NCBI RefSeq assembly: GCF_001429605.1
Contig: NZ_LMSS01000004.1
Span: 248,001-312,000 of the forward strand
Direction of reading: 5' to 3'
DNA length: 64,000 bases
Origin: Phycicoccus sp. Soil802
Lineage (GTDB): Bacteria; Actinomycetota; Actinomycetes; Actinomycetales; Dermatophilaceae
Shown here: positions 13,378 through 18,258 of the stretch, in pieces
Position numbering within the stretch: the stretch's first letter is position 1
How the letters are laid out: each line of letters starts with the position of its first letter
Position numbers and translations under genes: made by a program
The notes under the pieces: generated by a model
Database searches by the model: none
What the model was told of the DNA's origin: nothing
Seen by the model: the letters and a program-made list of their open reading frames with translations, nothing else

Positions 13378-14909
13378 CGTTCGGCCGCACCCGATCGGTC
13401 ACGCTGGAGGGGCTGGCCGGGTCCGTCGTGGAGGTCGAGGCGCACCTGTCCGGGGGCCTGCCCGCCTTCATGCTGGGCGGGCTGCCCGACGCCGCGTGCG
13501 CGCAGTCGCCCAACCGGGTCAAGGCGGCGGCGGCCAGCATCGGGCACTCCCTGGCGCAGAGCCGGATCACGGTCAACCTGTCGCCCGCGTCGATCCCCAA
13601 GAACGGCAGTGGATTCGACCTTCCCATCGCCATCGCCGTGGCGACGGCCCTCGGCCTGGTCCCGCCCGAGCGGGTGGGTGACGTGGTGCACCTGGGGGAG
13701 CTCGGGCTCGACGGGTCGATCCGCTCGGTGCGCGGTGTCCTCCCGGCGGTCCTGTGCGCCGCCCGGGCCGGGTGCCGAGACGTGGCGGTCCCGGTCGACA
13801 ACGCTGCCGAGGCGCGCATCGTGCCCGACATCCGGGTGCATCCCGTGGCCCACCTGGCTGATCTGATCGCGGCGCATGCAGCCGGGGTCGAGACCTTGGG
13901 GGTCAGCGCCCCGGAGCGGGCACCACGACTGTCGGTTGCGAAGGTCACGCCCGACCTCGCCGACGTCGTCGGCCAGGAGGAAGCCCGGACGGCGCTCGAG
14001 CTGGCGGCTGCCGGTGGACACCACCTGTTCCTGCTCGGACCACCCGGCTCCGGCAAGACGATGCTGGCCGAGCGACTGGTGTCGATCCTCCCGCGCCTGA
14101 GTCGAGAGCAGTCGATCGACGTCCTCGCCGTGAAGTCACTCCTCGGGGTGACTGCTGCCGAGCTGTCCCTCGAAGGGCTGCCGCCCTTCGTGGCACCACA
14201 CCACAGCGCCACGCAGGCGGCCATCATCGGGGGCGGGAGCTCGGCCGTGCGTCCCGGCGCGATCACGCTGGCGCACCACGGCGTGCTCTTCCTCGACGAG
14301 GTGCCTGAGTTCAAGGCGGCGGCCCTGCAGTCGCTGCGGCAGCCGCTGGAGTCCGGTCGGGTGGTCGTCTCCCGGGCCAAGGCGAGTGTGCAGTTCCCGG
14401 CCCGGTTCCAGCTGGTGATGGCCGCGAACCCGTGCCCCTGCGGTCTCGGCTTCGGCAAGGGGGTCGGCTGCTCGTGCACTCCCTTGGCCAAGCGCGGCTA
14501 CCTCGGTCGGATCTCGGGGCCGCTGCTCGACCGGGTCGACCTCCAGGTGCAGGTGCCCGCCATCACGCGTTCCTCGCTCGCGGGCCACGCGGGAGAGAGC
14601 AGCGCGACCGTCGCCGAGCGGGTCCTTGCCGCGCGGAAGGCCCAGGCCGAGCGATGGGACGGCACGCCGTGGAGACTGAACAGCGAGGTGCCCGGTTCGA
14701 AGCTGCGGCGCGGCCGGTGGCGTCTGTCTCCCTCGGTCACCACCGACATCGACCGGTCCCTCGACCGGGGCCAGCTGACGTTGCGTGGGTATGACCGGGT
14801 GATGCGGGTGGCGTGGACCGTCGCTGACCTCGGCGGTCGCCTGACCCCCACCCGCGACGACGTGGGCACTGCCCTGACCCTGCGCAACCAGGGCCCGGTG
14901 GCGGCATGA
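13374..14909 (+). CDS. comM: YifB/ComM family Mg-chelatase-like AAA+ ATPase
   Basis: A 511-residue protein. The N-terminal ChlI-like domain (residues 1-180) starts TRSVTLEGLAGSVVEVEAHL. The AAA+ domain has Walker A GPPGSGKTMLAERL and Walker B VLFLDEVPEF, plus a Cys-rich NPCPCGLGFG segment, and is followed by a C-terminal lid. In naturally transformable bacteria ComM is a hexameric helicase that drives branch migration of incoming DNA. The start is ATG 13374 inside the yraN stop; longer readings of the frame run into unrelated sequence. Part of the yraN-comM-dprA set. Confidence 0.93.
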   Translation: MTFGRTRSVTLEGLAGSVVEVEAHLSGGLPAFMLGGLPDAACAQSPNRVKAAAASIGHSLAQSRITVNLSPASIPKNGSGFDLPIAIAVATALGLVPPERVGDVVHLGELGLDGSIRSVRGVLPAVLCAARAGCRDVAVPVDNAAEARIVPDIRVHPVAHLADLIAAHAAGVETLGVSAPERAPRLSVAKVTPDLADVVGQEEARTALELAAAGGHHLFLLGPPGSGKTMLAERLVSILPRLSREQSIDVLAVKSLLGVTAAELSLEGLPPFVAPHHSATQAAIIGGGSSAVRPGAITLAHHGVLFLDEVPEFKAAALQSLRQPLESGRVVVSRAKASVQFPARFQLVMAANPCPCGLGFGKGVGCSCTPLAKRGYLGRISGPLLDRVDLQVQVPAITRSSLAGHAGESSATVAERVLAARKAQAERWDGTPWRLNSEVPGSKLRRGRWRLSPSVTTDIDRSLDRGQLTLRGYDRVMRVAWTVADLGGRLTPTRDDVGTALTLRNQGPVAA

Positions 14910-16009
14910 TGTCGGGGATCGCGCCGGTGCGCGGTGACCGTGCCGCGCGGGTGGCCTGGGCCAGACTCGTCGAGCCGGGCGACGAAACCGTCGCGGCCCA
15001 GATCGCCGCAGTGGGAGCGGAGGAGGCACTGCACGCAGTGGCTGCCGACACCACCCTGGGTGCCCGGATGGCCGAGCGCGCGGGGGAGCTCGATGTCGAC
15101 CGTGACCTGGCCATCGCCCGGCGCTTGGGCGCCCGGCTCGTGGTGCCGGGCGACGAGGAGTGGCCGCTGGGCCTGCTTGACCTGGCGGCTCCACCGATCT
15201 GCCTCTGGGTGCTCGGCCGCGCCAGCCTGGGTGAGGTGGCGGCCCGGAGCGTCGCCGTGGTGGGGGCTCGCGCGGCCACCGGCTACGGCGTCCACGTGGC
15301 GAAGGAGCTCGGCGCCGGGTTGGCGGAGCGGGACTTCGCCGTGGTGTCGGGCGCCGCCTACGGCATCGACGGTGCGGCGCACGAGGGCGCGCTGGCGGTC
15401 GACGGGGTGACCATCGCCGTGCTCGCCTGTGGTGTCGACCGGCCCTACCCAGCGGGGCATGCCGGGCTGCTGCAGCGGGTGCAGGAGGACGGCCTGGTGG
15501 TCAGCGAGGTGCCGCCCGGCTCGGCCCCGACCAAGTGGCGGTTCCTGAGCCGTAACCGGGTGATCGCGACGTTGACCCAGGGCACCGTGGTGGTCGAGGC
15601 GGGCCTGCGCAGCGGTTCGCGCAACACCGCCCGGCACGCGGACGAGCACCTCAGGGTCGTGTGTGCCGTGCCGGGCCCGGTGTCGTCGGCGGTGTCGGCG
15701 GGATGCCACGAGCTGGTCCGTGCCGGCGCGACCCTGGTCACCGATGCCGGGGAGGTCGCGGAGGCCGTCGGGCCGATCGGTGAGCTGGCCCCGCGCAAGG
15801 AGGGGGAGGCGCAGCCCGGCGACGACCTCGAGCCGAACCACCGGGTCGTCCTCGCGGCGCTGCCGGCTCGCAAGCCCGCGACGACCGAGGAGCTGGCCCG
15901 CCTGAGTGGGCTCAGCAGCACCGAGGTCCGGGGTGCCCTCGGTGCCCTGGACCTTGCCGGCCTCGCCCAGCGGCAAGGGGACGGCTGGCGCAGACCGCTA
16001 GGACGGTGA
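14906..16009 (+). CDS. dprA: DNA-processing protein DprA
   Basis: A 367-residue DprA/Smf. The Rossmann-like core shows VAVVGARAATGYG, VVSGAAYGIDGAAHEGAL, CGVDRPYPAGH and FLSRNRVIATL, then VVEAGLRSGSRNTA. A C-terminal winged helix (TTEELARLSGLSSTEVRGAL) is also present. DprA binds incoming single-stranded DNA and loads RecA. ATG start overlaps comM by 4 nt. With comM and yraN it provides the recombination end of transformation; the uptake machinery (ComEA/ComEC) is not in this window. Confidence 0.94.
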   Translation: MMSGIAPVRGDRAARVAWARLVEPGDETVAAQIAAVGAEEALHAVAADTTLGARMAERAGELDVDRDLAIARRLGARLVVPGDEEWPLGLLDLAAPPICLWVLGRASLGEVAARSVAVVGARAATGYGVHVAKELGAGLAERDFAVVSGAAYGIDGAAHEGALAVDGVTIAVLACGVDRPYPAGHAGLLQRVQEDGLVVSEVPPGSAPTKWRFLSRNRVIATLTQGTVVVEAGLRSGSRNTARHADEHLRVVCAVPGPVSSAVSAGCHELVRAGATLVTDAGEVAEAVGPIGELAPRKEGEAQPGDDLEPNHRVVLAALPARKPATTEELARLSGLSSTEVRGALGALDLAGLAQRQGDGWRRPLGR

Positions 16010-16069: not shown

Positions 16070-16075
16070 CACAAT
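16070..16075 (+). promoter_or_regulatory. -10-like element of a leaderless promoter for the GT29-like gene
   Basis: CACAAT, 6 nt before the GTG at 16082, within TGGCACAATGACG. Confidence 0.5.
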
Positions 16076-16081
16076 GACGCC

Positions 16082-16762
16082 GTGCTCGCAGCCGAGGTCG
16101 CCTCCTCCCAACAGGCCCAGTGGGACCTGGTGCGCGACTACCTCGCCTCGTACGCCGAGAACCGGCCGGTCCGGAAGGTGACCGTGGTCGGCAACGCGCC
16201 GCTGGGCCCCAACCCCGAGCGGGTGGCGCAGATCGACAGCAGCGACTTGGTCTTCCGGATGAACTCGATGGCCCTGGACGACCCGGGCACCCCGCCGTGT
16301 GTCGGCACCAAGTGCCACGTCCTGGTGGTGTCGCGGTACGCGCCGGTGACGCCGTGGATGTTCCAGGACTACCGGCAGCGCGCCTACCTGATCCCGCAGG
16401 CCGGCTACGGGCTGCGCTACATCCTCCATCCGCAGCCGACCTTCTGGCCCTCGGACCTCGGCACCATGCCGGTCCCCAACGCCCCGGTCATCACCCGGCT
16501 GCTCGACCAGCTCGACCCCGACCACGTGCCCAACCAGCTGATCCCCACTTCCGGGACCATCTCGTGCTTCCTGGCGCACGAGATGTTTCCCGAGGCCGAG
16601 ATGTTCGCGACCGGCTTCTCGTTCCTCGACGGGGTGCAGCGGGACTCGTGGCGCTACCAGAGCGGCGGAGGCAGCCCCGTCATCCCCGCCCACCAGCTGG
16701 GCCTGGAGGCACGACTGCTCCGCTCATGGATCGACGACGGCACCATGCGGATGCTGCCGTGA
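16082..16762 (+). CDS. GT29 (sialyltransferase)-like glycosyltransferase
   Basis: A 226-residue protein with both hallmark motifs of family GT29. An L-like motif reads KVTVVGNAPLG, then IDSSDLVFRMN and VGTKCHVLVV. An S-like motif reads IPTSGTISCFLAHEMFP ending in FATGFSFLDG. GT29 enzymes transfer sialic acid or related nonulosonic sugars from CMP donors. There is no signal peptide or membrane anchor, so it would act in the cytoplasm, perhaps on a surface glycan precursor. No CMP-sialate synthesis genes are in the window. A coiled-coil gene follows after 11 nt. Confident about the family resemblance, not about the substrate. Confidence 0.65.
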   Translation: MLAAEVASSQQAQWDLVRDYLASYAENRPVRKVTVVGNAPLGPNPERVAQIDSSDLVFRMNSMALDDPGTPPCVGTKCHVLVVSRYAPVTPWMFQDYRQRAYLIPQAGYGLRYILHPQPTFWPSDLGTMPVPNAPVITRLLDQLDPDHVPNQLIPTSGTISCFLAHEMFPEAEMFATGFSFLDGVQRDSWRYQSGGGSPVIPAHQLGLEARLLRSWIDDGTMRMLP

Positions 16763-16773
16763 AAGAGGAGAAC

Positions 16774-17280
16774 ATGTCCGGAACAGATGCGCGGCCCGAC
16801 GGCGCAGGAACCCCGACGCCCGGCGCCTACCGACGAGCCCGGCGTGCCTTCGGGCGGTGGCGCCGCAGCGTCGCGGACCCCAACAACCTCGCCGCGAAGG
16901 TGGACAAGCAGCGGGCCCAGCTCGACCGGCAGGCCACCCAGATCGCCGAGCTCAAGTCGTCGGTCGCGGCCCTGGGCAAGCGCCTGCACCCCGTCGAGCA
17001 CGCGTCGGCCCACCGCGAGGTGGAGCACGGTGGGCTGGCCATCCAGATCGGCATCGTCGAAGAGCGCCTCGGCAAGATCGAGGAGGGCCTGCGCAGTGCC
17101 GAGTTCGTGGGCGACGACGCCGAGCGGGCCGAGGCACGCAGCCTGGTCGAGGCGGTGCGGCGCGAGCACGAACAGGTCCGCGTCCGCATGCAGGTGATCG
17201 CCCAGTACGAGGAGCGGCTCCGGCGTCTGGAGGACGCCGTCGTCAAGACGTACGACGGAGACGTGCGCCACCCCTTCTGA
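16774..17280 (+). CDS. Coiled-coil hypothetical protein
   Basis: A 168-residue soluble protein. After a basic N-terminus (AYRRARRAFGRWRRSVADPNN) most of the chain is heptad-rich helix (KVDKQRAQLDRQATQIAELK, later EQVRVRMQVIAQYEERLRRL). A strong AAAGAGGAG ribosome binding site precedes the ATG. It starts 11 nt after the GT29-like gene, so the two likely form an operon. Such coiled coils often accompany glycosyltransferases in surface-glycan loci; a partner role is inferred. Confidence 0.7.
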   Translation: MSGTDARPDGAGTPTPGAYRRARRAFGRWRRSVADPNNLAAKVDKQRAQLDRQATQIAELKSSVAALGKRLHPVEHASAHREVEHGGLAIQIGIVEERLGKIEEGLRSAEFVGDDAERAEARSLVEAVRREHEQVRVRMQVIAQYEERLRRLEDAVVKTYDGDVRHPF

Positions 17281-17343: not shown

Positions 17344-18258
17344 GTGAGTGAGTCCCTGCTGCAGACGTTGGCGGCCTTCGAGCGCCACCTGCGCAGCGAG
17401 CGCGGCCGCTCGGAGCACACGACTCGGGCCTACCTCGGCGACCTCCGCGGACTCCTGCGCTTCCTCCAGGACGAGTGCGGCATGACCGACCTGGCCGACG
17501 TGGGGCTGCGCGAGCTGAGGGCGTGGCTCGCGGCGCAGGCTGAGTCGGGGGCGGCTCGGTCGACCATCGCCCGGCGTTCCGCTGCCGCCCGCACCTTCCT
17601 CGGGTGGGCGACCAGGACCGGGCGGATCGCCCAGGACCCGTCACTGCGTCTGGCTGCTCCCAAGCGCGCGGGTCACCTCCCGGAGGTGCTGCGCCAGGGC
17701 GACGCCACGGCGCTGATGGACCTCGCGGCGGTGGCCAGCGACGACCAGGACCCGATGCACCTGCGCGACCGCGCCGCCGTCGAGCTGTTGTACGCCAGTG
17801 GGATCCGGGTCGGTGAGCTGACCGCCCTCGACGTCGACGGCCTCGACCTCGCGGGAGGCGTGGTGCGGGTGATGGGCAAGGGCGGCAAGGAACGCACGGT
17901 GCCCTTCGGTGCGCCGGCCCGCGAGGCCGTCGAGGCCTGGCTGGCCCTGGGTCGCCCCCAGGTGGTCGTCGCGGGCAGCGGCCCGGCCCTGCTGCTGGGC
18001 CGACGTGGACGACGAGCCGACCCCCGGCAGATCCGGGCCGCTGTCCACGAGCTGCTCTCACACCTGCCTGACGCCCCGGACCTCGGGCCGCACGGCCTGC
18101 GGCACAGTGCTGCCACCCACCTCCTCGAGGGCGGGGCGGACCTGCGCCTGGTGCAGGAGCTCCTGGGCCATGCCTCACTCGCGACGACGCAGATCTACAC
18201 GCACGTCTCCGTGGACCGGCTCAAGGCCTCCTACCGACAGGCCCACCCGCGTGCGTGA
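17344..18258 (+). CDS. xerC: Tyrosine recombinase XerC
   Basis: A 304-residue phage-integrase-family recombinase that resolves chromosome dimers at dif with XerD. The N-terminal SAM-like domain ([20 protein letters not shown]) is followed by the catalytic domain: Arg in [23 protein letters not shown] (HxxR), [14 protein letters not shown] with the nucleophilic Tyr in IYTH. The GTG at 17344 (SESLLQTL) is chosen over one 33 nt upstream because family N-termini begin there and GACGGT lies 6 nt before it. In many actinobacteria it lies near dprA and the rpsB region, as here. It is not a sign of a mobile element. Confidence 0.92.

Follow-up and report, generated by a model that had tools for sequence, protein, structure and literature searches.

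Among the closest described counterparts of the protein reported here are the eukaryotic sialyltransferases of glycosyltransferase family GT29 (Pfam PF00777), among them ST6GalNAc2, ST3Gal1, ST6Gal1 and ST8Sia3. In the cited passages on human ST3Gal1 (PMC6884586), N147 and N170 bind the CMP phosphate, W297 stacks on the cytosine, H299 is the catalytic acid (the H299A variant is inactive) and H316 of the HxxxxE motif is the base; the histidine of motif VS is likewise named as the catalytic base of GT29 in the passages used from PMC10225777 and PMC6884586. An initial annotation of the present locus had noted that GT29 was long regarded as mainly eukaryotic, a view already revised in 2018, when GT29-like sequences were described from Alpha-, Gamma- and Epsilonproteobacteria and from one archaeon, the authors being unable to predict a function in the sections cited (PMC5811610). 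According to the same sections, these proteobacterial sequences are, like the family described below, bacterial proteins with all four sialylmotifs and with neither a membrane anchor nor disulfide cysteines; going by that description, they are set apart from the present carriers, which belong to the order and class of Microbacterium and in which the transferase gene has a partner and is linked in the genome to the synthesis of its donor.

KpsS1 of Acinetobacter baumannii (GT118) is described in the excerpt cited as a retaining pseudaminyltransferase related to the KpsC/WbbB Kdo transferases (PMC12887879); it has the donor that is predicted here, CMP-pseudaminic acid (CMP-Pse), but retains the configuration, whereas a GT29 enzyme should invert it. 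The plant protein RCKT1, as set out in the text cited (PMC11288761), is also a GT29 member, and its proposed donor is likewise a CMP-linked keto sugar that is not Neu5Ac, but it is membrane-anchored, with pectin as acceptor and Kdo as donor, unlike the protein studied here. A search of the open PMC literature (subscription papers lie outside that scope) gave, among the matches listed and in the text available of them, no link between GT29 and Pse transfer.

Locus and distribution of the gene pair

The window, i.e. the 64,000-nucleotide stretch of the Phycicoccus sp. Soil802 genome that was analysed, carries a GT29-like gene and a coiled-coil gene as an adjacent pair (Table 1). The gap of 11 nt between the two reading frames and the coiled-coil gene itself agree with the initial annotation. 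At 226 residues, the transferase is shorter than the solved eukaryotic GT29 domains listed (265-318 residues). No membrane-span-like segment was seen in the 11 coils and three transferases scored (highest 19-residue Kyte-Doolittle mean 1.01), which bears out the earlier description of the transferase as a soluble protein.

Table 1. Coordinates of the gene pair, its motifs and the flanking genes in the window
Feature	Position	Strand	Basis or remarks
GT29-like predicted CMP-nonulosonate transferase gene	16082..16762	+	226 aa, GTG start; ORF, fold, relatives
Sialylmotif L-like segment	16178..16336	+	Residues 33-85; N38, D52, D55, R59, G75 in 13/13 rows
Sialylmotif S-like segment	16541..16633	+	Residues 154-184; T156, G158, G178 in 13/13 rows
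Motif III-like segment W-R-Y-Q	16649..16660	+	Residues 190-193; Tyr where 10/13 rows have His
Motif VS, HxxxxE (H204, E209)	16691..16708	+	12/12 rows long enough to include the motif
Coiled-coil partner gene	16774..17280	+	168 aa; predicted helices 16-34, 36-107, 115-163
Coil conserved C-terminal segment (R138...YEERLRRLE153)	17185..17232	+	R138, E146, R148, E153 in 12/12 rows
dprA, left flank, housekeeping gene	14906..16009	+	Neighbour of the transferase gene
xerC-like recombinase, right flank, housekeeping gene	17347..18258	+	Neighbour of the coil gene

The GC content of the pair (0.695 for the transferase gene and 0.722 for the coil gene, versus 0.754 and 0.741 in the two flanking genes) and its GC3 (0.95 and 0.91, versus 0.89 and 0.89) mark nothing clearly foreign about it. 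At positions 16070-16084 of the window, CACAAT lies 6 bases 5' of the GTG start, and the congeneric genome G003 has an identical stretch of 15 bases ahead of its own copy of the gene; this could be a leaderless promoter arrangement.

Carriers are referred to below by species name or by genome label, the present genome being G000. A relative with 91% protein identity was found in one (G003) of ten other genomes of the genus, so that the transferase occurs in 2 of 11 genus genomes, with xerC located 3' of the pair in both. The 11 carriers outside the genus (M. commune, M. ulmi, G769, G639, G935, G982, G868, G922, G787, G864 and G530) share 33-45% protein identity with the window transferase. The search of the order yielded a relative at 38% identity, and the profile search of the class added three genomes, the gene being found by profile in 4 of 394 class genomes; searches by name led to M. 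ulmi and M. commune. In the family of M. commune (G367), 7 of 249 genomes carry the gene, G367 included, and the order of G639 yielded only G639 itself. No relative was found in the viral contigs, plasmids or phages searched, nor in genome contigs searched with the single protein. A match in G140 (E 0.002), in whose stretch no nonulosonate gene was seen by eye, was not counted. In a tree of the transferases, built without G530 (whose gene is cut by a contig end), G639, G787, G922 and G864 stood apart from the remaining carriers, giving two clades with support of 99/97.

Family membership, fold and active site

Scored alone against PF00777, the window protein reached 16.9 bits (E 0.0045), below the 23-bit cut-off. 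Ten of its relatives were scanned singly, and five of these exceeded the cut-off (27.7-33.3 bits, best E 4.2e-8), four being matched over motif L and one over motifs S to VS; three further relatives matched below the cut-off and two had no PF00777 match at E 0.1. Comparison with the GT29 profile therefore upholds the assignment at the level of the family but not by the window protein's own score. When PDB sequences were searched with a profile of the family, sialyltransferases stood at the top, non-significantly, with no chain found at E 0.01 and ST8Sia3 best at E 0.063. Another PF00777 match in the same genome (G000:C5:77691, 12.2 bits) was weak and was taken as chance.

AlphaFold, run on 7 sequences, gave a model of the transferase with a pLDDT of 76 and a pTM of 0.81. 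All 26 Foldseek matches of this model at E <= 0.001 were mammalian GT29 enzymes (best 6apj_D, E 1.5e-7). Among the matches listed by VIA-align, GT29 chains occupied ranks 1-14, with Z 10.9-13.8 over 175-201 residues, followed by the GT42 enzyme Cst-I at Z 10.2 and by the unrelated HPPK at 9.8. The GT42 enzymes Cst-I and CstII are, again among the matches listed, the next structural neighbours (Z 8.6-10.2, a range that also includes HPPK and, at 8.9, SteA); their structural match is weaker than that of GT29, and by sequence it is PF00777 that is found. The window protein is accordingly modelled with the GT-A variant 2 sialyltransferase fold, and the prediction places no other fold ahead of the mammalian sialyltransferases. 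A chance match of motifs was rejected, since fold, Pfam and conservation concur. The reading as GT29 holds: the window protein is filed in the family via its relatives and its fold, despite its own score below the cut-off, and it is the relatives that settle membership.

The two sialylmotifs reported in the initial annotation were recovered, the L-like VVGN...FRMN...VGTK at residues 35-77 and the S-like PTSG...FATGF at residues 155-179, with N38, D52, R59, T156 and G158 present in all 13 aligned rows. Beyond these, a motif III-like W190-R-Y192 and an exact motif VS, H204-x4-E209, were identified. The family thus shares with eukaryotic GT29 the fold, VVGN and RxN of motif L, TxG of motif S, W-x-(H/Y) at motif III and the HxxxxE of motif VS. 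It differs in having no membrane anchor found and no invariant cysteine, in its bacterial nonulosonate link and in its coil partner; the cysteines of the eukaryotic L-S disulfide are absent, none being invariant in the 13-row alignment.

The hST3Gal1 residues were matched by motif alignment, not by an inspected superposition. On this basis, N38 corresponds to N147 and is present in 13/13 rows, and N61 corresponds to N170, the position being Asn in 9/13 rows and Thr in G639, G922, G787 and G864. The counterparts of H316 and E321 are kept in all 12 rows that extend to motif VS. The position of H299 is His in 10/13 rows but Tyr in the window protein, G003 and G530, and going by sequence this tyrosine is the main doubt on the activity of the window protein.

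That doubt bears on an alternative in which the window pair would be a degenerate or regulatory offshoot that has kept the fold and lost transfer, acting for example as a CMP-sugar sensor via the coil. Besides the tyrosine, shared with G003, the position of the pair next to xerC and away from the pse cluster in both genus carriers, and its occurrence in only 2 of 11 genus genomes, would fit such an offshoot. It is nevertheless rather unlikely, as the protein is 91% identical between the two species and motif VS, N38, N61 and the coil are all retained; furthermore, GC3 is of the coding type, and the tyrosine recurs in the distant relative G530, where a His follows one residue later.

Donor sugar and nonulosonate pathways

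It had been proposed initially that no nonulosonic acid synthesis gene lies near the pair and that the donor may be unusual. The probes used indeed picked up none across the 64 kb of the window, but a pse cluster is present on contig C5 of the genome, unlinked from the pair (separate contigs), and an absent donor pathway was rejected because of it. In this cluster PseI (449 bits, cut-off 340) and PseB (489 bits, cut-off 408) pass their cut-offs. PseC, at 399 bits, is just under its cut-off of 423.5, a PseG-like/PseH-like fusion scores below the cut-offs, and the call for the cytidylyltransferase (PF02348) is unspecific, with KdsB models outscoring PseF. The same Pse set is carried by G003. Given the presence of PseI and PseB in its own genome, the likely donor is CMP-Pse, which is ordinary for bacteria and unusual for GT29, so that the donor is unusual in the latter sense only.

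Other genes of this region were noted in their own right. A 354-aa protein on contig C5 at about 181 kb (L030:16278-17339, minus strand) matched neither a Pfam nor an NCBIfam model at E 0.001 and is a possible further transferase. Beside pseI, at L030:4195-8953 (minus strand), two large proteins that are predicted to be secreted and have FG-GAP-like repeats were recognised by eye, one of them with an amidase-like part.

Two genomes of the genus, G006 and G005, served as contrast genomes for the neighbourhood probes, the NeuA, NeuC and Pse query names being assigned by eye. G006 combines a Pse cluster (PseI at 456 bits) with the lack of such a transferase, so its role can be filled by a different one. 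At L034:8257-12058, G005 has a NeuB gene whose neighbours look by eye like NeuA and NeuC, in place of a Pse set; the genus thus mixes nonulosonate pathways.

In 9 of the 11 carriers outside the genus, pathway genes were found directly beside the pair within the stretch fetched (up to ~10 kb on each side). The adjoining gene is pseI in M. commune, where the pair sits within the cluster, and in G769; it is pseF-like in M. ulmi and is pseB in both G935 and G982. In G922, G787 and G864 the neighbour is a cytidylyltransferase gene, and in G639 it is a fragment of one where the contig ends; the stretch around the pair of G868 contained no nonulosonate gene. A binomial estimate for adjacency in 5 of 6 genera gave 7.9e-11, a value that assumes one random 20-kb target in 3 Mb and ignores the clustering of surface-glycan genes. 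NeuB-family synthases were found in 11 of 12 carrier genomes, compared with 120 of the 394 genomes drawn from the class; in G639 no nonulosonate synthase was found, its NeuB-family match (29 bits) being a DAHP synthase that was not counted. For the pooled carriers, Fisher's test (11/12 versus 117/390) gave p 2.2e-5, which is optimistic as the carriers are related and were taken from other draws, and within the class draw alone the association is weak (3/4 versus 117/390, p = 0.09). Adjacency is stronger evidence for the nonulosonate link than co-occurrence. As the transferase is rare (4/394) and NeuB common, most nonulosonate users do without it.

These neighbourhoods also weigh on a GT29-type transferase with another CMP- or nucleotide sugar as donor, for which adjacency in the relatives would reflect shared polysaccharide clusters. 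Direct pathway neighbours in nine of the 11 carriers outside the genus, and a NeuB-family synthase in 11 of the 12 carrier genomes, make this reading unlikely, even though the pair is not beside nonulosonate genes in its own genome or G868, G639 offers only the adjoining cytidylyltransferase fragment with a NeuB-family synthase not found, and CMP-Kdo is the donor proposed for the plant GT29 RCKT1 in the text cited (PMC11288761).

Among the nonulosonates, the choice of sugar may differ between members. Five carriers (G000, M. commune, M. ulmi, G769 and G935) have a synthase that exceeds the cut-off of the PseI model, and the synthase fragment of G530 reached 330 bits with this model against 198. 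For the synthases of G982 (both), G868, G922, G787 and G864, the N-acetylneuraminate synthase model outscored PseI, below both cut-offs; several queries in this comparison are domain fragments. In G864, the cytidylyltransferase (L060:8462-9637, minus strand; best model PseF, 120 bits, cut-off 206) is fused to a KdsC/Kdn-9-phosphatase-like HAD domain, which suggests a 9-phosphate nonulosonate route. A clean split of the tree by donor was rejected, as G982 and G868, in the PseI-type clade, have NeuB-type synthases; neither clade nor residue 61 is thus a shown donor determinant. The best reading is that the transferase family as a whole goes with nonulosonates and that Pse applies here, but not in every carrier.

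In three genomes of one genus, a "putative glycosyltransferase" divergently flanks the block of transferase, coil, cytidylyltransferase and NeuB genes (L058:10520-11701, L059:8411-9592 and L060:10772-11959). It belongs to DUF6716 (Pfam) in G922 and was homologous by tblastn in the other two.

Partner protein, acceptor and proposed function

The pairing with a coiled-coil protein, noted initially for this locus, extends to the relatives, a helical protein lying directly 3' of the transferase in all 12 carriers with a readable next gene. It was found by tblastn in nine (G000, G003, M. commune, M. ulmi, G769, G639, G935, G982 and G868) and recognised by position and C-terminal segment in G922, G787 and G864; G530, in which the contig ends inside the transferase gene, was outside the count. 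The spacing of the two genes ranges from a 4-nt overlap (five genomes) to 61 nt. Lengths and N-terminal parts of the coils vary, with 23-32% identity to the window coil outside the genus, and the invariant residues fall in the YEERLRRLE region. The coil was modelled as three helices with a pLDDT of 82 and a pTM of 0.43; no convincing Pfam family was found for it, generic coiled-coil models scoring below cut-off. The constancy of the neighbour and of its C-terminal segment suggests that the coil is a physical partner of the transferase.

Genes for glycan export and polymers are found no more than 22 kb from pseI in this genome, namely those for a flippase-type protein (PF01943), an ABC-2 exporter and a GT2-glycerophosphotransferase protein. 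Flagellin (PF00669) is present in 4 of 12 carriers and was unmatched in the other eight, this genome included (two of the assemblies are 82 and 85% complete), so it is not a general acceptor. A flagellin nonulosonate transferase, comparable to the Maf proteins of Gram-negatives, is very improbable on these grounds, although Pse is a classical flagellin sugar and four carriers do have flagellin. In Streptomyces coelicolor, according to the passage cited (PMC7831098), the cell wall has teichulosonic acid, a polymer of Kdn, as its major polymer. With this precedent, the missing flagellin match and the export and polymer genes near pseI, a wall glycopolymer is the likeliest acceptor, as we infer it.

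Taken together, the pair is proposed to consist of a soluble cytoplasmic GT29-fold CMP-nonulosonate transferase, here most likely using CMP-Pse, and a coil partner, acting on an envelope glycopolymer; a probability of about 0.72 is given to this reading. Fold, motifs, conserved pair and genomic link to nonulosonate pathways are computed features of the locus. A pseudaminyltransferase function is predicted, with the genomic context as support; activity, Pse as the donor in this strain, stereochemistry, acceptor and physical complex belong to the following model. The pse cluster elsewhere in the genome would make CMP-Pse, which the L and S motifs would hold by its CMP as in the GT29 scheme, with W190 and Y192 of motif III placed at the cytosine and phosphate. 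H204 of motif VS would then deprotonate the acceptor hydroxyl, leading to one-step transfer, probably with inversion. The C-terminal YEERLRRLE segment of the coil probably docks the transferase, and the variable rods may carry it to the site on the membrane at which the envelope glycopolymer is assembled; this polymer could be teichulosonic-acid-like or another wall polymer.

What is new here is the lineage, which is not named in the sections cited of the 2018 account (PMC5811610), together with the predicted donor and the partner; fold and motifs are those of known GT29. With such an enzyme, the question of what bacterial GT29 proteins do, which the 2018 account did not answer, would become directly testable, and the locus bears on the origin of the animal sialyltransferase fold. 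The constant coiled-coil partner is a feature of interest in glycopolymer assembly.

To our knowledge, few pseudaminic acid transferases have been characterised. Being small and soluble, a GT29 enzyme of this kind, for which the donor pathway is native and the partner defined, could find practical use as an inverting tool. It is proposed more tentatively that the actinobacterial GT29 family as a whole forms an obligate two-protein complex with a rod-like coil, the CMP-nonulosonate varying by member (Pse, or a Neu/Kdn/Leg-type sugar). If true, this would provide an inverting GT29-type pseudaminyltransferase and would hint that the fold of animal sialylation served several bacterial nonulosonates.
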